DNA from: Geobacter sp.
GTDB taxonomy: Bacteria; Desulfobacterota; Desulfuromonadia; Geobacterales; Pseudopelobacteraceae
Length of the DNA stretch: 35,116 nucleotides
Assembly (NCBI GenBank): GCA_025360785.1
Contig: JANYBN010000226.1
Coordinates: 1 to 35,116 of the forward strand
Direction of reading: 5' to 3'
In this document: one piece after another, positions 1-18,950 of the stretch
Layout of the letters: every line of letters starts with the position of its first letter
How positions within the stretch are numbered: position 1 is the first letter of the stretch
Notes under the pieces: generated by a model
What the model saw: only the letters and a program-made list of their open reading frames with translations
What the model was told of the DNA's origin: nothing
The model's database searches: none
Program-made: the position numbers and the translations under genes

Positions 1-58
1 TTGATGTAAACAGATTTCCTGTCCATATAACTAATATCAAGGCAGGGGGAGGGGTACT

Positions 59-535
59 ATGGCTGAAGAGTTACAGACAACCCAGTATTTGACCTTTACA
101 CTGGCCGACGAGGTGTTTGCCGTCGATGTGGCCAGGGTCCGGGAAATACTGGAGATGCCGAGCATCACCAAGGTGCCGCAGGTGCCGGTATTTATGCGGG
201 GGGTCATCAATCTGCGCGGCTGCGTGGTGCCGGTCATTGATCTGCGGCTGAAGTTCGGCATGGAGGAAACCGCCCAGACCGTTAATACCTGCATCATCGT
301 GGTGGAAGTGGCAATGGACGGCGAAAACATTGTTCTTGGGGCGCTGGCCGACAGCGTTCAGGAAGTGATTGAGATGGAGCCGTCCCAGATCGAGGCGGCG
401 CCGCACATCGGCACCCATCTCAATACCGAATTTATCAAGGGCATGGGCAAGCACGACGGGCGCTTTGTCATGATCCTCGATATCGACAAGGTGTTTTCCG
501 GCGCTGAGTTGGCCGCAGTTCAGAGGCAAGGCTAG
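59..535 (+). CDS. cheW: Chemotaxis coupling protein CheW (copy 1)
   Basis: 158-residue single-domain CheW. It bridges receptors to the CheA kinase in cytoplasmic signalling arrays. The family signature is visible: YLTFTLADEVFAVDV near residue 10, REILEM, FMRGVINLRG around residues 46-55 and VVPVIDLRLKFG just after. The ATG is preceded by a strong purine-rich Shine-Dalgarno (about 42-54). It sits 49 bases upstream of an MCP gene, so the two are probably co-transcribed. It is a close paralogue of the CheW at 13353, about 80% identical by eye. The upstream 58 bases hold a weak promoter-like TATAAC at 26-31, not convincing enough to call. Function is confident from family membership; which MCPs it serves is inferred from adjacency. 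Confidence 0.96.
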   Translation: MAEELQTTQYLTFTLADEVFAVDVARVREILEMPSITKVPQVPVFMRGVINLRGCVVPVIDLRLKFGMEETAQTVNTCIIVVEVAMDGENIVLGALADSVQEVIEMEPSQIEAAPHIGTHLNTEFIKGMGKHDGRFVMILDIDKVFSGAELAAVQRQG

Positions 536-4591: not shown

Positions 4592-5065
4592 ATGAAAATA
4601 GCTATAGCCATAATTATTGTTATGTTCCTCCCCATGTTTACCAACTTTGTATCTGCCGCACCTGCTCAAACACTACCCAAAGGGTATCTTTCCTGGAAGA
4701 AAAGCGAACGCAAGGTCGTCACCGATAAAAACTCGCTCTTTTACGGTATTCACTACATTTACGCCGATAAGAAAGCGCAGAGCGGGTATCTGGCCGGCAA
4801 CAGATTTGCCGAGGGGAGCCGCATCGTCATCGAGTTTTTCAATATCAAGGAGAATCCGGCTGTTGACGGCCCGAAAAATATGATCGTAATGATGAAGAAG
4901 GATAAGCGGCAGGCGGCAACCGGCGGCTGGCTTTTTGCCGGTTTTGGCGCTGACGGCAAGCCCAGCGGCCTCGATCCGGTCACCACCTGTTTTGGCTGCC
5001 ATCAGAAGGATGCCGCGCAGAGGGATTTTGTGATCTCTACGAAAAAAGATTTTAAGAATTTTTGA
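4592..5065 (+). CDS. Exported cytochrome P460-family protein
   Basis: 157 residues with an N-terminal signal peptide (hydrophobic run at about 3-20, likely cleavage after SAA near residue 23). A single c-type haem site CFGCH lies at 133-137 near the C-terminus. The body resembles the cytochrome P460 family: the WKKSERKVVTDKN segment and the conserved GYLAGNRFAEGSRIVIEFF region at about 65-83. It would be a periplasmic mono-haem protein. P460 proteins in other bacteria oxidise hydroxylamine or bind NO or c' type ligands; the substrate here cannot be told from sequence. It is the first gene after its own promoter and is followed closely by a receiver/kinase gene, so redox or gas sensing is possible but inferred. 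Haem attachment needs Ccm machinery elsewhere. Confidence 0.85.
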   Translation: MKIAIAIIIVMFLPMFTNFVSAAPAQTLPKGYLSWKKSERKVVTDKNSLFYGIHYIYADKKAQSGYLAGNRFAEGSRIVIEFFNIKENPAVDGPKNMIVMMKKDKRQAATGGWLFAGFGADGKPSGLDPVTTCFGCHQKDAAQRDFVISTKKDFKNF

Positions 5066-6325: not shown

Positions 6326-6724
6326 GTGAAATGTTTGATAGCTGAAGATCATCTGTTGTCCCGCCGGATTTTGAAGGAAATGCTTTCGTCCCAGTTTGAC
6401 TGCGACATCGCCGTGAACGGCCAGGAAGCGATAGATTCATTCCAGTTGGCACATGAGTCGAAGCGCCCTTACGACGTAATCTTTATGGACATTATGATGC
6501 CTGTAGTTGACGGCTTGGAGGCGTTGTTGTGCATCCGCACCATAGAGCGGAAGATGGGAATTCCGCACGGGATGGCGGTAAAAGTTGTCATGACCACTGC
6601 CCTGGATGATCCGCACACGGTTGTCAAGTCATTCAACGAGTGTGAAGCGGACGCGTATATCGTCAAGCCGCTCAGCAGGCATAAACTTACAAATGAGTTG
6701 CGTAAGCTCAAGCTGTTACCATAG
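6326..6724 (+). CDS. Single-domain response regulator (CheY-like)
   Basis: 132 residues consisting of one receiver domain. Acidic pair Glu7-Asp8, phosphoacceptor Asp55 in FMDIMMP, a Thr in VMTTA and Lys in YIVKPLS are all present. There is no output domain, so it acts by protein contact, as CheY does, or as a phosphate relay. The start is GTG, with AGAAGGAGAG just upstream. It sits between the receiver-kinase hybrid (16-base gap) and the 604-residue MCP/CheZ-like gene (10-base gap), suggesting one transcript and a functional circuit. It is clearly distinct from the cheY at 8988. Confidence 0.92.
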   Translation: MKCLIAEDHLLSRRILKEMLSSQFDCDIAVNGQEAIDSFQLAHESKRPYDVIFMDIMMPVVDGLEALLCIRTIERKMGIPHGMAVKVVMTTALDDPHTVVKSFNECEADAYIVKPLSRHKLTNELRKLKLLP

Positions 6725-6734
6725 GAATCAATTC

Positions 6735-8549
6735 ATGACGATGCAAATTACTACACATAGCGAGAGAGACTATCTTCTGGCTGGCTTGCGGGATAAGTTT
6801 GATCCTGCAATAGACATGTTACGGCGGATGGCCGGCACTACTGAAGACGAATTTTTACAGATTGGATCGCAGCTGCAATCCTTTTATCAGCGCTCGGCGG
6901 AAATTTCAGGAATGGCCAAGGAGCTGGTGTCAGTGGTGTCAGGTGAGAATGTGTTTTCGCTTACATCCCGTCTGCAGCAGATGATGGCGGATATGGAGGC
7001 TTATCTGGCCAACGCCCGGGCTCGTAGCGGAGAAAACTGTCTTACCCTGGAGCAGGTACAGGTACTTCTGGATAAACTTTCTGAGCCGTTGGAAGGTTTC
7101 CAAAAGATGAACAAGTCCCTCCGCATGTTGAGTATCTCCACCAAAATCGAAAGCGCCCGTCTGGGTGAGCTTGGCAGCGGTTTTGTTAATCTGGCTATTG
7201 ATGTTGAAAAACTCTCACATCAGGTTCATGAAAAATCGGCCGCAATCCTTAGCCATCGTCAACTGCTGGCGACCTTGATCACCGCTAATCTGTCCACCGT
7301 CAGGTCATCAGAGACAAAGCAGGACGTCATGGTGTTGGCAACGTTGAAGGATACATCCGCAAACCTTACAGAGCTTGTCGCTGTCAATGAACGATGTACC
7401 CGGTTCGGGAGCACGGTTTCAATAATATCCGGCGAAGTTACCGACAGCATCAGTGAAGTTGTCTCTTCCATGCAGATGCACGACATGACCCGGCAGCAGC
7501 TTGAACACGTAGTAGAAGCGCTGGAACGTCTTACCGGCGATCTGGCTGGTGCAAAAACTTCCGATGACGATAACGACCGTCTACGCAGAGTGATTATCGA
7601 AACCGGTGATATCTGCGAACTTCAGGAGGCCCAGCTCCGCTTTGCTTCGAGCGAGCTGTACTCAGCTGTCTGTAATATTATTGATAATCTGCGTGAAGTA
7701 GCCAGTAAACAATCAGTGATTGCGCAGGAGACTATTACAATTACCGGTGCAACCGGCTCTTCATTCGTGGATGTAATGAGCCTGGGGATGTCTGCCGTGA
7801 CTGCCGTATTGACTTCATGTGCCGAAGCCGACCGTAATATGTCAGACACCATAAAAAAGGTGGCTCAAACGATTAATGAAATAGCTTCCTTTGTCACCGA
7901 TATCGAGGCAATTGGTTCCGAGATTGATCTGATCGCCCTTAATTCGCAGATCAAGGCGGCGCTTACCGGACCCGAGGGGGCTGCTTTGGGTGTGCTGGCC
8001 GAGGCGATCAAACGACTCTCGGACGAAGCGGTACGGCAGACCGATTCAGTCGCCGCGACCCTGACCGGAATACATGGTGTAACAGAGCACCTGTTGGCAA
8101 ATTCAGAAAACGAAGAGGATCAGCTTGGCGTCCGTATATCTTCGATGCAGGAAGAGTTGGCCGTAATTCTTAGCACTTTGGGAGAAATGAATACGGAGAT
8201 GCTTTCCGTTTTATCCGGCCTGAATGGACGGGTACTCCGTCTGACGGAGGATGTTGAAGAGGCCACTGCAGGAGTGGATGTACATGAACGAACAAAAGCT
8301 ATGTCTGATGGCGTCCTTGCCGATCTCGAACTGATTGTTGCCCAATCGCGCCAGATAGAACCGGCAAGCAGCGAGTTCAAAGAGAACCTGCGGCATATGG
8401 AAGAACATTATACGATGGAGAGTGAACGCCATATTCACGAGGCTCTTGCCCGTAAGCGAAGCGGCCAGACAGTGATTGCTGTTCGGAGTGTTGCGAAGGC
8501 CAGTACTGTTGATGAATCAGAGTTTGGTGATAATGTAGATTTGTTTTAA
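6735..8549 (+). CDS. Soluble MCP-like coiled-coil protein with CheZ-like DxxxQ motif
   Basis: 604 residues, largely helical, with no membrane segment or HAMP. Two segments resemble degenerate MCP hairpin tips: about 131-165 (STKIESARLGELGSGF) and about 398-432 (LIALNSQIKAALTGPEG). Between them, residues 245-259 read MQMHDMTRQQLEHVV. Its spacing of Asp250 and Gln254 matches the catalytic Asp143/Gln147 helix of the CheY-P phosphatase CheZ (QDLTGQ in E. coli). The C-terminus ends acidic-hydrophobic, EFGDNVDLF, comparable in character to the CheY-binding tail of CheZ. The start at 6735 has AGGA 8 bases upstream; the longer open frame overlaps the preceding gene. A role as an array-associated CheY-P phosphatase or unusual receptor is inference. 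An automated annotation would probably read 'methyl-accepting chemotaxis protein'. Confidence 0.7.
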   Translation: MTMQITTHSERDYLLAGLRDKFDPAIDMLRRMAGTTEDEFLQIGSQLQSFYQRSAEISGMAKELVSVVSGENVFSLTSRLQQMMADMEAYLANARARSGENCLTLEQVQVLLDKLSEPLEGFQKMNKSLRMLSISTKIESARLGELGSGFVNLAIDVEKLSHQVHEKSAAILSHRQLLATLITANLSTVRSSETKQDVMVLATLKDTSANLTELVAVNERCTRFGSTVSIISGEVTDSISEVVSSMQMHDMTRQQLEHVVEALERLTGDLAGAKTSDDDNDRLRRVIIETGDICELQEAQLRFASSELYSAVCNIIDNLREVASKQSVIAQETITITGATGSSFVDVMSLGMSAVTAVLTSCAEADRNMSDTIKKVAQTINEIASFVTDIEAIGSEIDLIALNSQIKAALTGPEGAALGVLAEAIKRLSDEAVRQTDSVAATLTGIHGVTEHLLANSENEEDQLGVRISSMQEELAVILSTLGEMNTEMLSVLSGLNGRVLRLTEDVEEATAGVDVHERTKAMSDGVLADLELIVAQSRQIEPASSEFKENLRHMEEHYTMESERHIHEALARKRSGQTVIAVRSVAKASTVDESEFGDNVDLF

Positions 8550-8610
8550 AACCTTACCCCCCCCCAGCCCCCTCCTTGAAGGGAAGGAGGGGTTGGGGGG
8601 GGTTGGGTTT
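8549..8610. repeat. C/G-rich inverted repeat, family B copy 1 (extended), with G-runs
   Basis: A C-rich left arm (8549-8577, ending CCCCCTCCTT) faces a G-rich right arm beginning AAGGAGGGG at 8584. They are separated by a short GAAGGG spacer and extend outward to AAACC/GGTTT. The core CCCCTCCTT/AAGGAGGGG is shared with copies at 17492-17514 and 25803-25823. It lies between the MCP/CheZ-like gene and the STAS gene. The + strand at 8581-8607 has four runs of three or more G, so a quadruplex is an alternative fold. Confidence 0.8.
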
Positions 8611-8640
8611 AGTTTGCAACCCGGGATTAAGGAGCCTGTC

Positions 8641-8988
8641 ATGCCACTCAACAGTTCAGTCCGTGAAAACGGCGCAATAATCGTCACCAGCGGTGATCGC
8701 CTGACTATTGAAAACGCTGCGGAATTTTCGCGCATCGTCCGCGAGGCGCTGGAAGCGTCAAGTATCATCGAACTCGAATTTGATCCAGCGGTCGAAATTG
8801 ACATAACAGGTCTGCAGATCATCTGTTCAGCCTGCAAGAGCGCTGCTAACAGCGGTAAAATATTTTCGTATCACGGCCAGCAGCCGCAAACTCTGGCAGA
8901 TATCATTAAGAGTAGCGGTGCTGAGCGGCATTCGGCCTGCAAGCACAACAATAATTCAACCTGTATCTGGTTTGGAGGTACCAACTAA
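8641..8988 (+). CDS. STAS-domain protein, chemotaxis-associated
   Basis: 115 residues forming one STAS domain of the anti-sigma-factor-antagonist type. The usual phosphorylation loop is DITGLQ, placing Thr56 where Ser/Thr is modified in SpoIIAA-like proteins. The C-terminal part has two Cys (HSACKH and STCIW), a pattern I associate with STAS proteins found beside cheY and cheA. The start is the ATG with AAGGAG 7 bases upstream; the frame runs further up into the G-rich repeat but has no proper start there. Its TAA overlaps the cheY ATG by one base, so translation is coupled. The partner is unknown: it could bind a kinase-like protein such as the one at 17569, but that is speculation. Confidence 0.82.
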   Translation: MPLNSSVRENGAIIVTSGDRLTIENAAEFSRIVREALEASSIIELEFDPAVEIDITGLQIICSACKSAANSGKIFSYHGQQPQTLADIIKSSGAERHSACKHNNNSTCIWFGGTN

Positions 8989-9353
8989 TGGCAAAGTTAA
9001 TCATGACAGCCGATGATTCGGCCAGTGTCCGGCAGATGGTGGCATTTACCCTTAAACAGAACGGTTATGATGTCGTTGAGGCGGTCGATGGCAAGGATGC
9101 CCTTAATAAACTGAACGCGCAAAAAGTCGATATGCTGCTGACCGATTTGAATATGCCCAATATGGACGGCATCGGCCTCATCAAAGGTGTGCGTGCCGGA
9201 ACCCTCAATAAATTCATTCCGATTGTCATGCTTACCACTGAATCTAACGACACTAAAAAGGGTGAAGGCAAAGCCGCCGGTGCCACCGGCTGGATCGTTA
9301 AGCCATTCAAACCGGAGCAGTTGATTGCCGTGATTAAAAAGGTACTGGGGTGA
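8988..9353 (+). CDS. cheY: Chemotaxis response regulator CheY
   Basis: 121 residues, single receiver. Asp9-Asp10, phosphoacceptor Asp53 in LLTDLNMPNMDG, Thr83 in VMLTTES and Lys105 in WIVKPFKPEQ are all in place, so it should be phosphorylated. It starts within the STAS stop codon and ends 4 bases before cheA, so it is almost certainly the cognate target of that CheA. The downstream effector (flagellar switch, pilus or other) is not in the window. Confidence 0.96.
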   Translation: MAKLIMTADDSASVRQMVAFTLKQNGYDVVEAVDGKDALNKLNAQKVDMLLTDLNMPNMDGIGLIKGVRAGTLNKFIPIVMLTTESNDTKKGEGKAAGATGWIVKPFKPEQLIAVIKKVLG

Positions 9354-9357
9354 GATC

Positions 9358-11481
9358 ATGATGGAAGAAGCAATTGCAACGTATCGCGAAGAGGCCGGTG
9401 AACTGCTGGCAGAGCTGGAAACTTCGCTGCTCGACCTGGAAGAAACGCCCGATGACAATGATCTGATCAACCGCGTCTTTCGTGCCATGCACACCATAAA
9501 GGGCTCTGGCGCGATGTTTGGTTTCGATGAGATTGCAGGTTTTACGCACGAGGTTGAGACGGTTTTCGATATGGTGCGCAACGGTAAGATGACCGTCACC
9601 AAACGCTTGCTTGATCTGACGCTGAAATCGCGCGACCACATTTCCTATCTGCTCAATATTCCCGAAGGCGAAGAGCTTGATCGCAGCGAGGGAGATGAAA
9701 TTATCGCAGGTCTGCGCCAACTGGTGCCACAGATAGAAATGCCGCAAAAAGGTTCCGATGAGGTGCCGGTCATTGAGCTCCCGGCGCTGTCCGAGGATGA
9801 ACTTGCCAATGAGTGTACCTGGCGTATCCGCTTCCGTCCCGCTCACAATATCCTGATGTGCGGCACCAACCCCATTTCGCTGATTAACGAACTGCGCGGT
9901 CTTGGTAAAGCTCACGTTGTCGCCCAGTTCGACGAGATTCCTGCGTTAGACGAACTGGTGGGTGAAAATTGCTATATCTATTGGGATATCATCCTGACTA
10001 CGACCCGTGGCGAAGATGCCATCAAGGATGTCTTTATCTTTGTAGAGGACGATTGCGATATCAAGATCGAGCTTATTGACAGAAGCGGCCTGATTGATCG
10101 TGAAGAAGGCTACAAAAAACTGGGCTACATTCTGGTCGAACGTGGTGATCTCTCGCCGGTTGAAATGCAGAAGGTACTGATGCTGCAGAAGCGCTTCGGC
10201 GAACTGCTGGTAGAGCAGGGTATTGTCTCGCCGGAAAAGGTACAGTCGGCTCTGGTCGAGCAGCAGCATGTCAAAAGCGTCCGCAAGGAACGCAGCGAAG
10301 CTCCGCCACAGGAAGCCGCCGCCAGCATCCGTGTTCCGGCCGAACGTCTGGATCAGCTGATTAACCTGGTTGGCGAAATGGTTACGGTACAGGCGCACCT
10401 GTCCCAGGTTTCCTTTGCCGGTGGCGATCCCACCTTTATCGCCATCTCGGAAGAGGTCGAGCGCCTCACCAACGAACTGCGCGACACCGCCCTCAATATC
10501 CGCATGCTCCCGATCGGCAGCACTTTCAGCAAATTCAAACGGCTGGTGCGCGATCTCTCAAGCGAACTCGGCAAAGAGATCGAAATGGAGACTTTCGGCG
10601 CCGAAACCGAACTGGACAAGACCGTAATCGAAAAACTGAACGATCCGCTGGTTCATATAATCCGCAACTGCATCGATCACGGCATCGAAATGCCCGAGGT
10701 GCGCAAGGCAGCCGGTAAATCATCACACGGCACCGTCTGTCTGGGAGCCGAACATTCCGGAGATTCAGTGCTGGTAACCATCCGCGATGACGGCGGCGGG
10801 CTTGACCGTGATCGAATCCGCGCCAAGGCTATTGAAAGGGGCTTGATTTCGGCTACTGCCGAAGTGTCTGATAAAGAGATCTATGCACAGATCTTTGCTC
10901 CAGGATTTTCTACTGCTGAAAAGGTGACCAGCGTCTCCGGGCGCGGTGTCGGCATGGATGTCGTCAAGCGGGGTATCGACGGCTTGCGCGGTTCGATCGG
11001 AGTGGATAGCGTCAGCGGCGCTGGCACGACCATCACCCTCAAGATTCCGCTGACTCTGGCGATCATCGACAGTCTGCTGGTCAAGATCGGCAAGGATCAT
11101 TTCGTCCTGCCGCTGGCTGCGGTAGAGGAGTGCGTCGAACTGACTGCTGAGGATATCAAAAACTCTCATGGCCGCAATCTCGCCAACGTGCGCGGTGTTA
11201 TTATCCCTTATATTCCACTGCGCCAGCATTTCCGCATCAGAGATCAGCGTCCGGAAATCGAGCAGATTGTGATTGCCGATATTCACGGCACCAAGGTAGG
11301 TTTCGTGGTTGATCATGTAGTCGGAGAGCATCAGACCGTCATCAAGTCCCTCGGCAAGATGTACCGCGATGTGAAGGGTGTCTCCGGGGCGACCATTCTG
11401 GGTGACGGCACGGTGGCGCTGATCCTCGATATGAGTGTACTGCTGCAGTCAATCGAGAAACTGGAGCATGCGGGAATGTAA
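9358..11481 (+). CDS. cheA: Chemotaxis histidine kinase CheA with MshEN-like linker repeat
   Basis: 707 residues. The P1/Hpt domain (about 1-105) has phosphoacceptor His45 in MHTIKGSG. A P2-type regulator-binding domain follows (about 150-242). Then comes an unusual tandem of two 24-residue motifs (about 254-302: KLGYILVERGDL and RFGELLVEQGIV). The P3 dimerisation segment (about 325-385), P4 ATPase (HIIRNCIDHGIE, RDDGGGLD, GRGVGMD) and P5 CheW-like domain (about 565-700) complete it. It takes its signal from the MCP/CheW array and phosphorylates CheY and CheB. ATG at 9358 or 9361 both work; GGGGTGAG lies just before. All catalytic motifs look intact. The tandem motif is not a standard CheA part and is treated as a finding. 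Confidence 0.96.
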   Translation: MMEEAIATYREEAGELLAELETSLLDLEETPDDNDLINRVFRAMHTIKGSGAMFGFDEIAGFTHEVETVFDMVRNGKMTVTKRLLDLTLKSRDHISYLLNIPEGEELDRSEGDEIIAGLRQLVPQIEMPQKGSDEVPVIELPALSEDELANECTWRIRFRPAHNILMCGTNPISLINELRGLGKAHVVAQFDEIPALDELVGENCYIYWDIILTTTRGEDAIKDVFIFVEDDCDIKIELIDRSGLIDREEGYKKLGYILVERGDLSPVEMQKVLMLQKRFGELLVEQGIVSPEKVQSALVEQQHVKSVRKERSEAPPQEAAASIRVPAERLDQLINLVGEMVTVQAHLSQVSFAGGDPTFIAISEEVERLTNELRDTALNIRMLPIGSTFSKFKRLVRDLSSELGKEIEMETFGAETELDKTVIEKLNDPLVHIIRNCIDHGIEMPEVRKAAGKSSHGTVCLGAEHSGDSVLVTIRDDGGGLDRDRIRAKAIERGLISATAEVSDKEIYAQIFAPGFSTAEKVTSVSGRGVGMDVVKRGIDGLRGSIGVDSVSGAGTTITLKIPLTLAIIDSLLVKIGKDHFVLPLAAVEECVELTAEDIKNSHGRNLANVRGVIIPYIPLRQHFRIRDQRPEIEQIVIADIHGTKVGFVVDHVVGEHQTVIKSLGKMYRDVKGVSGATILGDGTVALILDMSVLLQSIEKLEHAGM

Positions 11482-14010: not shown

Positions 14011-14883
14011 GTGACCAAAAACCAGGACAACAGCACAAAACCTCATCTTCCTGCAACCCTGCGTGACCGCGAATTTCACCGTTTCAGCAGCTTCATTTAC
14101 GATAATGTCGGCATCAAGATGCCACCCGCCAAAAAAACCATGCTTGAGGCGCGTCTGCAGAAGCGCCTCAAGGCTTTGGGTATTCCAACTTTTGAGGAAT
14201 ACGGTGATTACGTCTTCAGCCAGGAGGGGCGGGCAGGGGAATTGATCCATCTGATTGACGTTGTGACTACCAACAAGACCGATTTTTTTCGTGAACCTGC
14301 CCATTTCGACTTTATGGTGAAGACAGCGCTGCCAACTATTCTTGAGGCTCGCAACGATGTGCAGCGCGACCCGGTGCGGATTTGGAGCGCGGGCTGTTCA
14401 ACCGGTGAAGAACCCTATACTCTGGCGATGGTTCTGTCAGAATTCGCCATTGGCCGTCCTGACTTCCGTGTTGCCATCACCGCCTCAGACATCTGCACCC
14501 AGGTGTTGCAGACTGCCAAAACAGCCATCTATCCTGAAGAGAGAACCGATCCCATTCCGCTGAACCTGAAGAAAAAATATCTTATGCGCAGCCGTGAAAA
14601 ATCCAAATCACTGGTGCGTATTTCTCCGAATTTGCGCTCACTGGTTTCATTCAGACGGATCAACTTCATGGACGATGACCTCGGTATTTCAGAAAAGATG
14701 GACATAATATTCTGCCGTAATGTGGTTATCTATTTCGATAAGCCGACCCAGCAGACCCTGATGAAAAAGTTTCATCGACAATTGAGGCCCGGAGGATACC
14801 TGTTTATCGGGCATTCAGAAACATTGAGCGGACTAGATGTTGATTTTAGCGCTGTGGCATCGACGGTGTACCGGAAAAGTTAA
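14011..14883 (+). CDS. cheR: Chemotaxis methyltransferase CheR
   Basis: 290 residues. It transfers methyl groups from S-adenosylmethionine to Glu residues of MCPs. An N-terminal helical domain (about 15-80) is followed by the TTNKTDFFRE motif (86-95), the SAM-binding WSAGCSTGEEPYTLAM (125-140), ICRNVVIYFDKP and GGYLFIGHSET. No tetratricopeptide extension is present. The start is GTG at 14011, with AAAAGGAA just upstream; the nearby ATG at 14007 is out of frame. It lies 25 bases before cheD and pairs functionally with cheB downstream. Confidence 0.95.
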   Translation: MTKNQDNSTKPHLPATLRDREFHRFSSFIYDNVGIKMPPAKKTMLEARLQKRLKALGIPTFEEYGDYVFSQEGRAGELIHLIDVVTTNKTDFFREPAHFDFMVKTALPTILEARNDVQRDPVRIWSAGCSTGEEPYTLAMVLSEFAIGRPDFRVAITASDICTQVLQTAKTAIYPEERTDPIPLNLKKKYLMRSREKSKSLVRISPNLRSLVSFRRINFMDDDLGISEKMDIIFCRNVVIYFDKPTQQTLMKKFHRQLRPGGYLFIGHSETLSGLDVDFSAVASTVYRKS

Positions 14884-14908
14884 TGGCCCTTGTCCACTAA
14901 CATCTATT

Positions 14909-15421
14909 ATGAAAAGCCTTATTGCCTCACATACGCACAGCGTCTACCTCAAGCCGGGTGAGGTACTGGTAACACTGACGCCGATGCTGGTTTCCACCGT
15001 TCTGGGGTCGTGCATCGCGGTGACTATGTTTTCGGCTTCCCGTGGTTTTGGAGCGATCTGTCATGCAATGCTGCCCGAGAATGCCGGTCGGGACAACGAC
15101 CTTCGCTATGTTGATACCGCTCTTAAGCACATTTACGACAATATATTGGAATATGGTGCCGGCAGTGATCTGGTAATCAAGTTGTTCGGCGGCGCTCAGG
15201 TGCTGAATGTTGGTAAACGGTCGGCGGACAGAATAACTGTGGGAGATCAGAACGTAGCAAAGGCCGAAGCTGTGCTGGCTTCACTGGGGCTTCTGGTCTC
15301 TGCCCGTGATACCGGCGGCACCCGGGGGCGTAAGCTCTTTTTTTGTACAAGGAGCGGGGATGTTTTTATGCGTCGTATGCGTCATGACAAACATTCTATT
15401 GATGAGGATACAATTCGATGA
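14909..15421 (+). CDS. cheD: Chemoreceptor glutamine deamidase CheD (copy 1)
   Basis: 170 residues. It deamidates receptor Gln residues to Glu. Catalytic residues seen: Cys35 in VLGSCIAV, His52 in ICHAMLP and Thr30. [15 protein letters not shown] and [11 protein letters not shown] are family landmarks. The ATG at 14909 has no clear Shine-Dalgarno, so translation may depend on cheR read-through or coupling; the longer frame overlaps cheR. Its stop overlaps the cheB start (ATGA). It differs from copy 2 by having Cys immediately before the catalytic His (ICHAML versus MNHLML). Confidence 0.93.
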
Positions 15422-17521: not shown

Positions 17522-17568
17522 AGTCCCCTTCCCGGGGTGGTATGATGTCAAGACAAGGAGAGCCTCGC

Positions 17569-18459
17569 ATGAACTTAACCGATGATGATCTGATAGAAGA
17601 GTTGTCAAACCGGTTTGCCCAAAGCCGCAAGGCTTTTTCCGATTTAAGCGTGGTTAACCGCAAGTTGATAGAAATGAATGAACGGCTGGAGCGCTCTGAA
17701 TCGCTCAAAAGTAATTTTCTTTCTAATATCCGCAACGAAATTAATAATCCGCTCAATGCAATCATGGGACTGGCCGGACAGCTTGCATTAATTGGTGCCG
17801 GGAATGAAGAAATAGCATCCCTGTCTTCGCTGATAGGTGCGGAAGCCAACCATTTGGATTTTCAGCTCCGTAATATCTTCATGGCGGCAGAATTGGAGGC
17901 GGGAGAGGTCTACCCCCGCTGTGTAAAGGTTCATATCGCATCTGACTTGCGTGATCTTGTAGATTGCTTTCTGCATACCGCTGCAAAAAAGAATGTGTCG
18001 CTTGATCTGGTTCTGTCGGCTAAAGAAAATAATTGTATTGTTGCCATTGATTTTGAAAAACTTCAGATTGTCGTCTCAAACCTGCTGGCAAATGCAATTG
18101 AATACAGCATCGAAGGCGGTACTGTCGAAGTTTCAGCTTCCGTTTGCGGAAATGGTGATTTGCACATTTCTGTTCAGGATCATGGTGTCGGTATTGCGCT
18201 GGAAGATCAGCAGCGCATATTTGATCGCTTCGTCCAATTGGATGCCGGAACTACTCGCTCGCACCTGGGACATGGGCTGGGGCTCTGTATAACCAAGGCA
18301 CTTGTGGATCTTATGCAGGGCAGCATCAGATTGGTCAGCACTCCTGGCGAAGGTACGCTTTTTACTATCACTATTCCCCCCTGCTCGATTTTAGACGATG
18401 AAGATTCTTTTTCTGAGGCCGGCAATCTTTTCCTCTTCGATGATATGAGTGAGGCGTAG
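17569..18459 (+). CDS. Histidine-kinase-like protein lacking the phosphoacceptor His
   Basis: 296 residues, cytoplasmic. A short coiled coil (about 10-48) leads into a HisKA-like helix reading FLSNIRNEINNPLNAI. The position normally filled by the phosphorylated His (SHExxxPL) is Asn56. The ATPase domain seems complete: NLLANAIEYS, QDHGVGIALEDQQ, and a glycine-rich lid with HGLGLCITKA. It may therefore be a pseudokinase, a heterodimer partner that phosphorylates another subunit, or an ATP-dependent regulator. AAGGAGAG lies 8 bases before the ATG at 17569; an in-frame ATG at 17542 lacks one. The C-terminal 25 residues are acidic. It is followed after 5 bases by cheD copy 2, linking it to receptor control. 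Confidence 0.85.
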   Translation: MNLTDDDLIEELSNRFAQSRKAFSDLSVVNRKLIEMNERLERSESLKSNFLSNIRNEINNPLNAIMGLAGQLALIGAGNEEIASLSSLIGAEANHLDFQLRNIFMAAELEAGEVYPRCVKVHIASDLRDLVDCFLHTAAKKNVSLDLVLSAKENNCIVAIDFEKLQIVVSNLLANAIEYSIEGGTVEVSASVCGNGDLHISVQDHGVGIALEDQQRIFDRFVQLDAGTTRSHLGHGLGLCITKALVDLMQGSIRLVSTPGEGTLFTITIPPCSILDDEDSFSEAGNLFLFDDMSEA

Positions 18460-18464
18460 TCAGC

Positions 18465-18950
18465 GTGGGCTATGAAGAACCGATCAACAAGCATTTCCTC
18501 TTTCCCGGTACCATCTTTGCCGAACCTTTTGAATATCAGATCAGCACCGTGCTTGGTTCGTGTGTCGCCGTCTGTCTGTTTGATCGTGTGGCATGCCGGG
18601 GGGGGATGAATCACCTCATGCTGCCGCTATGGAACGGTGAGGGGTTGGCAACGCCAAAGTATGGCAATATTGCCATGGAAAAGTTGCTGAGCAAGGTGCT
18701 GTCAATCGGTTGTCACCGTGAACATCTGGTCGCCAAGGTTTTTGGGGGCGCCAATGTCTCCGGAACCGGGCTGGAAGTGTTCATGATCGGTGATCGTAAT
18801 ATTACGCTGGCGCTGGATATGCTGGAAGATCTCAAGATCCCGGTTGTTGCCAGAGATGTCGGCGGGCGGGTCGGCCGAAAAATAATTATGAATACCGCAA
18901 CAGGCGTGGTTCTGGTTGGTAAGGGGAGAAAAACAGCATCTGGTGGGTAG
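18465..18950 (+). CDS. cheD: Chemoreceptor glutamine deamidase CheD (copy 2)
   Basis: 161 residues. Catalytic set Thr28, Cys33 (VLGSCVAV) and His50 (GGMNHLMLP) present, along with KVFGGANV, IGDRN and ARDVGGRVGRK. It matches the standard CheD pattern more closely than copy 1. The start is GTG at 18465, five bases after the preceding stop, with a GAGG 10 bases upstream. CheD often binds the CheY-P phosphatase CheC; no cheC is in the window. Confidence 0.92.
   Translation: MGYEEPINKHFLFPGTIFAEPFEYQISTVLGSCVAVCLFDRVACRGGMNHLMLPLWNGEGLATPKYGNIAMEKLLSKVLSIGCHREHLVAKVFGGANVSGTGLEVFMIGDRNITLALDMLEDLKIPVVARDVGGRVGRKIIMNTATGVVLVGKGRKTASGG

Follow-up and report, generated by a model that had tools for sequence, protein, structure and literature searches.

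The 604-amino-acid protein encoded at positions 6735-8549 of the window (the whole 35,116-nucleotide stretch of Geobacter sp. DNA analyzed here) is probably a phosphatase of phosphorylated CheY (CheY-P) that serves its own chemosensory system and is built on a chemoreceptor-like coiled-coil scaffold. The protein is soluble and MCP-like, with a DxxxQ helix located between two diverged MCP hairpin tips, and since it carries a CheZ active-site helix and is encoded beside cheY, it probably switches the messenger off. The phosphatase assignment is well supported by sequence comparison, though not proven. By the same kind of comparison the protein belongs to a large unnamed family, whose motif and C-terminal tail recur in two architectures, referred to here as the long form (as in the window) and the short form. 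The nearest precedents are CheZ and the rhizobial protein CheT, and what appears likely to be new here is a DxxxQ response-regulator phosphatase on an MCP scaffold.

The motif MQMHDMTRQQLEHVV contains Asp250 and Gln254 as the first-pass annotation had claimed, although it occupies residues 246-260 and not 245-259 (Table 1), and the i, i+4 spacing of the two residues lies in the same register as D143/Q147 of CheZ. In the long-form alignment of 76 rows, obtained after merging rows identical over the last 120 residues (six are alphaproteobacterial, five are fragments of 265-425 amino acids, and L064 and L065, from one bin, may be one gene), D250, Q254 and Q247 are identical throughout, H258 is kept in 75 rows, R253 in 74 and T252 in 69, and the His249 column holds H in 63, Q in seven and G in six. 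The long-form relatives diverge to about 23% identity with the window protein, and of the 593 well-occupied columns just seven are fully invariant, those of D250, Q254 and Q247 among them. A second copy in genome G025 likewise retains D250 and Q254; the proposed check of conservation among orthologues has thus returned an invariant pair, in 76/76 rows and this further copy. When [QH]D[IM]T[RS]Q was searched as an 18-base pattern, 23 matches appeared in 18 family-positive genomes, 18 of them in long-form members, one in a short-form member and four outside the family (a PAS kinase, an unplaced 324-codon frame and two frames of fewer than 50 codons), and the backward pattern gave two matches in the same genomes.

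Table 1. Features of the window discussed in the text, with their positions, strand and supporting evidence
Feature	Position	Strand	Evidence
Single-domain receiver, less CheY-like	6326..6724	+	Pfam; alignment; ends 10 bases upstream of 6735 gene
MCP-like protein with CheZ-type DxxxQ helix	6735..8549	+	604 aa; translation, family conservation, Pfam MCPsignal
First diverged MCP hairpin-tip segment, residues 119-173	7089..7253	+	phmmer to 3g6b, 4jpb; columns versus E. coli Tar
CheZ-type motif, residues 246-260	7470..7514	+	D250 at 7482-7484, Q254 at 7494-7496
Second diverged MCP hairpin-tip segment, residues 382-441	7878..8057	+	Pfam MCPsignal; columns versus E. coli Tar
Conserved YTMESER segment, residues 559-565	8409..8429	+	Column conservation
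C-terminal tail EFGDNVDLF	8520..8546	+	DN[VI][DE]LF-stop pattern
STAS-domain protein, CheS-like cluster place	8593..8988	+	Pfam STAS_2 1.1e-4, below curated cut-off
CheY, most likely substrate (putative)	8988..9353	+	Pfam; alignment with E. coli CheY and 15 neighbours
CheA kinase	9358..11481	+	Pfam Hpt, H-kinase_dim, HATPase_c, CheW

The 604-residue protein passes the cut-off of MCPsignal (PF00015) with 38.9 bits versus 34.6 (E 1.1e-9, best stretch 368-489), all 30 long-form members tested match the same family (best 1.7e-21), and solved MCP structures such as 3g6b and 4jpb match the protein at residues 54-178, 116-174 and 253-555 in phmmer searches. These matches bear out the two degenerate MCP hairpin-tip segments that had been described on either side of the motif. 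The Pfam scan of the protein detected no sensor domain, no CheC/CheX domains (PF13690/PF04509) and no ATPase domain. In comparison with E. coli Tar, the first tip keeps E139, R142 and G-x-GF150 and is without the LALN stretch, and the second keeps ALN403, with K at 407 where Tar has E and A-A-L in place of R-G-F. The canonical MCP tip as seen in Tar is absent from the long form, both tips being diverged in the 30 rows compared; the tip of the short form is canonical or nearly so in the eight aligned short forms. Because both long-form tips differ from the canonical one, the earlier suggestion of docking into the receptor lattice through the tips is unsupported as written and stays conjectural for the long form, and the canonical tips of the short form make array membership more plausible for that architecture.

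AlphaFold models of the protein are monomers of long helices, nearly all helix for the whole protein (pLDDT 82.7, pTM 0.58) and with pLDDT 85.6 and pTM 0.33 for residues 170-345. The whole-protein model resembles the cytoplasmic hairpins of MCPs (3g6b, TM 0.74 by target length in Foldseek), and its Foldseek and VIA-align rows comprise MCPs together with many unrelated long-helix proteins; the fragment gave weak unrelated rows alone. CheZ is not among the structure matches listed for the whole and fragment models (best 50, 50, 17 and 21 rows), an absence that is uninformative.

The C-terminus carries a strict family signature. The DNA pattern for DN[VI][DE]LF followed by a stop had 20 matches in 16 of 18 family-positive genomes, each ending a family member as assigned by position, and its backward version had none in these 18 genomes. 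The alphaproteobacterial copies have a different tail sequence that is yet acidic-hydrophobic. Of the earlier claim of a CheZ-like tail, the presence of EFGDNVDLF stands but its alignment with the CheZ tail does not: in a by-eye comparison with the CheZ alignment, no helix similar to the CheY-binding DDLLxxLGF of CheZ was found in the DN[VI][DE]LF tail. In the nearby YTMESER segment, Y559, T560, M561, E564 and R565 are each present in 0.97-1.0 of occupied long-form rows, and its Y, M and R are also invariant in the short-form module.

Direct comparisons of the long form with CheZ are modest in strength. The whole-profile hhalign gave a probability of 2.8 in a different register, while residues 215-280 aligned in register with E 0.012, a score reached by 0/150 column shuffles and 1/150 block shuffles; among 25 hhalign windows along the long form, the motif window ranked first at 19.6, with an unrelated window (23-88) at 19.3. 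When 113,296 pairs of ungapped 21-column windows from the family and CheZ profiles were scored, the best lay on the D250:D143 diagonal, which was also best at window lengths of 11, 15, 21, 31 and 41 with two backgrounds; between 0 and 88 of 300 shuffles were as good, the fewest for long windows. After masking of D, T and Q the CheZ register was no longer best in this ungapped comparison, and reversed CheZ outscored real CheZ at window lengths 15 and 21 and scored lower at 31. The best CheZ HMM score of the long form, 11.6 bits, was equalled by 1/3,000 shuffled controls. Pfam CheZ matches 10 of the 30 long members at E 10 (best 7.6e-5), the window protein not among them, and by members matched it ranks fifth, after MCPsignal and three coiled-coil chance families; the family members that came up in the genome search with CheZ (PF04344) score 20-22 bits, below the gathering cut-off of 30.7. 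These tests point to a local similarity that is in register but modest, and by family rules the window protein is no CheZ; that identity was rejected on the hhalign result in another register and on CheZ HMM scores near those of shuffled controls. As the direct evidence from the long form is weak, the claim of homology rests on the short form.

The short form, reached via profile searches and the motif pattern, is a protein of 412-493 amino acids with a membrane anchor (N-terminal segments that look hydrophobic by eye), a single MCP hairpin, the DxxxQ helix in the form LQFQDITRQ-IEHV, a Y-M-R segment and tails such as GDNVELF or PKIELF. The D-xxx-Q pair is kept in 18/18 short-form or module sequences. 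Ten of these were obtained with the help of the motif, one through the motif pattern and nine through a motif filter; the eight obtained independently of it (L155-L161, L206) all keep the pair. The short-form motif-to-tail profile aligns with CheZ in hhalign at E 8.8e-5 (probability 59.8), placing FQDATRQ on FQDLTGQ with D on D and Q on Q in the CheZ register. None of 150 column shuffles and none of 150 seven-residue block shuffles was as good, the reversed profile was also below the real score, and the E value was 8.7e-5 with full rows and 5e-5 once the motif-derived row was left out. Pfam CheZ finds three of the eight short-form modules at E 10 (best 7.3e-4), other Pfam families matching no more than one module each, and the CheZ HMM run on 2,116 ORFs of 36 neighbourhoods gave three matches at E 0.01, all of them short-form members. 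In the opposite direction, the short-form profile matched in 63 of 297 genomes, and 19 weaker rows overlap PF04344 CheZ genes over cut-off; it also matched one 191-amino-acid stand-alone protein and second sites near the C-terminus of four long members, and the rows G223:C114, G021:C1:2413770 and G220:C21 were left uninspected. A PDB sequence search with this profile returned 41 sequences at E 10 with no CheZ among them, the best being a designed coiled coil (E 5.6e-4). The expected match of the motif region to CheZ is therefore significant by way of the short-form relatives but weak for the window protein itself. The first-pass annotation would have been abandoned for want of both a CheZ match and conservation; the short forms supplied the former, and Asp250 and Gln254 are invariant.

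Some small proteins carry related segments. The 191-amino-acid protein (L218:3862-4434, + strand) bears a CheZ-like helix on its own, LLQYQDVLRQKIEKIASAL; the 6.6 kb analyzed at this locus contained no recognised che genes. The 144-amino-acid ORFs of L198 and L201 consist of the short-form motif-to-tail module alone and are possibly genes split by a stop.

Relatives of the 604-residue protein were identified in 37 of 297 genomes of the phylum, its own genome included (E 1e-10), and a search with the protein also found 35 loci in genomes mostly labelled Geobacteraceae or Desulfuromonadaceae. Cultivated Geobacterales with the gene include Oryzomonas japonica and Pelotalea chapellei. A larger count by the long-form profile at E 1e-15 (108/297 genomes) was set aside because many of its rows are MCP-type matches to the second half alone. 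A plasmid-borne relative was found in Methylosinus, and via it eight more plasmid records from Agrobacterium, Shinella, Rhizobium, Azospirillum and Sphingomonas; six of these nine records were analyzed (Methylosinus and five of the eight others). The annotations carried by family members are hypothetical, chemotaxis protein and type VII secretion target, the last being the label of L152:6719-8443 and probably a misannotation.

With regard to genomic context, the che cluster continues after CheA with genes for an MCP, CheW, CheR, CheD, CheB and a CheW-receiver (CheV-type) protein. The CheY at 8988 keeps D12, D13, D57, N59, T87 and K109 (E. coli numbering), and among 15 aligned neighbour CheYs, D57, T87 and K109 are present in all and Asn59 in 14; the 6326 receiver has Met at the T87 position. 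For 28 of the 31 Desulfobacterota copies (21/24 long, 7/7 short), a CheY gene is found no more than 500 bases away on the same strand, the exceptions being the long copies L108, L112 and L164 (the contig ends at L164), and one further long copy also adjoins CheY. A STAS relative adjoins 15 of the 24 long copies in Desulfobacterota, and CheA is close to 19. Two of the six alphaproteobacterial plasmid copies have CheY nearby, encoded on the other strand, and one of these two also has an annotated STAS gene; CheY was not found in the analyzed stretch of the other four, where other che genes are present. The single-domain receiver gene reported just upstream of the 604-residue protein is indeed there, and a counterpart occurs in only three of the 24 long copies (L104, L106 and L107). 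Of the two receivers proposed as partners, the downstream CheY is thus likelier than the 6326 receiver, cheY being a conserved genetic neighbour.

Other features of the cluster were also noted. A cytochrome P460 gene (window 4592-5065) lies inside the che cluster beside two kinases, likewise in L104, L106 and L107. There are two cheD genes (14837-15421 and 18465-18950), the second beside a small histidine kinase (17542-18459), and such a histidine kinase-cheD pair recurs in L119 and L120.

Other candidate CheY-P phosphatases are located elsewhere in the genome. The genome-wide family search found no CheZ in the organism's own genome and four CheX-family matches, all on other contigs, two of which also match CheC. 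No CheC, CheX or CheZ domain was detected by Pfam in the 20 window ORFs between 59 and 22384, and the genome-wide searches had no match to these families on the window's contig, C118, in agreement with the earlier statement that the cluster has no stand-alone cheC, cheX or cheZ. Among the 37 family-positive genomes, CheZ is over cut-off in 17 and a CheX match (E 0.001) is present in 34; together with the four CheX matches in the organism's own genome, these counts indicate that the family protein is not the sole phosphatase genome-wide, and a replacement of other phosphatases at the genome level was rejected on the same counts. With blastp and an HMM built from three own-genome CheX copies, no CheX was found near the family gene in 36 neighbourhoods, a weak zero because the HMM missed the fourth own-genome copy; among the CheX matches listed, the nearest (G223:C28:33226) is about 13 kb from a family gene (G223:C28:18348), beyond the neighbourhood covered by that search. 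As a separate observation, the CheZ profile aligns as two separate pieces to many of the CheZ genes of Desulfobacterota, within ORFs of ~400-690 amino acids (for instance G145:C5:100266-101579, G172:C1:1002959-1004320 and G005:C494), as would be expected if CheZ contained a long insert or a duplicated hairpin.

In CheZ, the glutamine positions the attacking water and the aspartate contacts the CheY active-site lysine. By analogy, the helix at about residues 241-272 would let Asp250 and Gln254 reach the active site of CheY-P (8988), where Gln254 would position the attacking water and Asp250 would contact the lysine of CheY. CheY is probably tethered by the flexible C-terminal EFGDNVDLF segment. 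A dimeric scaffold is the probable contribution of the MCP hairpins, which may also locate the phosphatase within the receptor array or next to it.

Several other readings of the same data can be considered. It is plausible in principle, though unlikely, that the DxxxQ helix and the tail bind CheY or CheY-P without hydrolysis, the protein serving as a docking scaffold or buffer through which CheY stays close to CheA: the whole face Q247-D250-R253-Q254-H258 is conserved with the tail, as a binding surface would be, the gene adjoins cheY and cheA, and the full-length profile gives no CheZ membership. However, the invariant residues include the CheZ catalytic pair, at the catalytic spacing and in register, and the rhizobial DXXXQ protein CheT is described as enhancing the dephosphorylation of one CheY (PMC12654446). 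A target other than CheY, such as the 6326 receiver, CheB or CheV, seems rather improbable; the 6326 receiver gene, which ends ten bases upstream, and its counterparts in L104, L106 and L107 suggest such a partner, but these are the only three of 24 long copies to have it, as against CheY beside 21, and the 6326 receiver is without Thr at the T87 position.

A further reading is a soluble chemoreceptor of unusual type, or a structural protein of the array, whose likeness to DxxxQ proteins arises incidentally from a polar layer buried within the coiled coil. This would account for the MCPsignal matches of all 30 long members and for the resemblance of the model to the 3g6b hairpins, and chance matches to helical families are common. 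We consider this explanation very unlikely, as 19 of the 23 motif-pattern matches in 18 genomes belong to the family, motif and tail occur in two architectures, both long-form tips are diverged, and CheZ genes are among the short-form-profile matches. The sequence HDMTRQ resembles the HDxxxQ motif of HisKA_3 kinases, and on a reading as such a helix His249 would be a phospho-acceptor; this reading was dropped as having next to no likelihood because His249 varies among the 76 rows, and the protein has no ATPase domain. A phosphatase acting on CheY-P remains the preferred reading.

Compared with known systems, the candidate phosphatase shares with CheZ the DxxxQ pair on a long helix, the context F[QH]D[IL]T[RG]Q.[IL] in the same register, an acidic-hydrophobic C-terminal tail ending in F and a gene beside cheY. 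Unlike CheZ, it is built on MCP hairpins with undetectable full-length similarity, its tail DN[VI][DE]LF is not alignable to DDLLDSLGF of E. coli CheZ, and the family has the additional near-invariant residues Q247, R253 and H258 and the segment YTMxSER. With cytoplasmic MCP domains such as the Thermotoga maritima soluble receptor (3g6b) it shares the hairpin coiled coil, Pfam MCPsignal and a Foldseek match, but it differs from these in having two diverged tips per chain with the DxxxQ helix between them, a conserved tail and no Pfam sensor domain. CheX and CheC, with members elsewhere in the same genome, would do the same job; the fold and motif of these phosphatases differ from those of the DxxxQ type. 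The literature search, which lay mostly outside subscription journals, found no published MCP-like protein with DxxxQ. Besides CheZ, the nearest precedent is CheT of Sinorhizobium meliloti, known by its description: a DXXXQ protein without significant similarity to known chemotaxis proteins, it has a CheZ-like predicted structure and, of the two CheYs present, enhances the dephosphorylation of one. The system of CheT also includes a STAS protein, CheS; an MCP hairpin is not mentioned for CheT in the available text (PMC12654446). For Geobacter, a 2008 survey of chemotaxis genes reported no cheZ and concluded that a CheZ-independent mechanism must operate (PMC2577667).

The family described here is a candidate CheZ-type terminator for one recurring kind of che cluster, encoded next to CheY, and if this is true, the receptor scaffold would be a phosphatase location of a new kind. 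The family also points to a function for proteins whose current labels are hypothetical, type VII secretion target or chemotaxis protein, and to a possible evolutionary connection of CheZ with MCP coiled coils. More tentatively, and with less than even likelihood, these proteins could represent widespread unnamed receptor-phosphatases, lattice proteins with a CheZ active site in their coiled coil, in which the signalling state of the array could control the removal of CheY-P in addition to the kinase activity of CheA, and CheZ itself may share the origin of the module.
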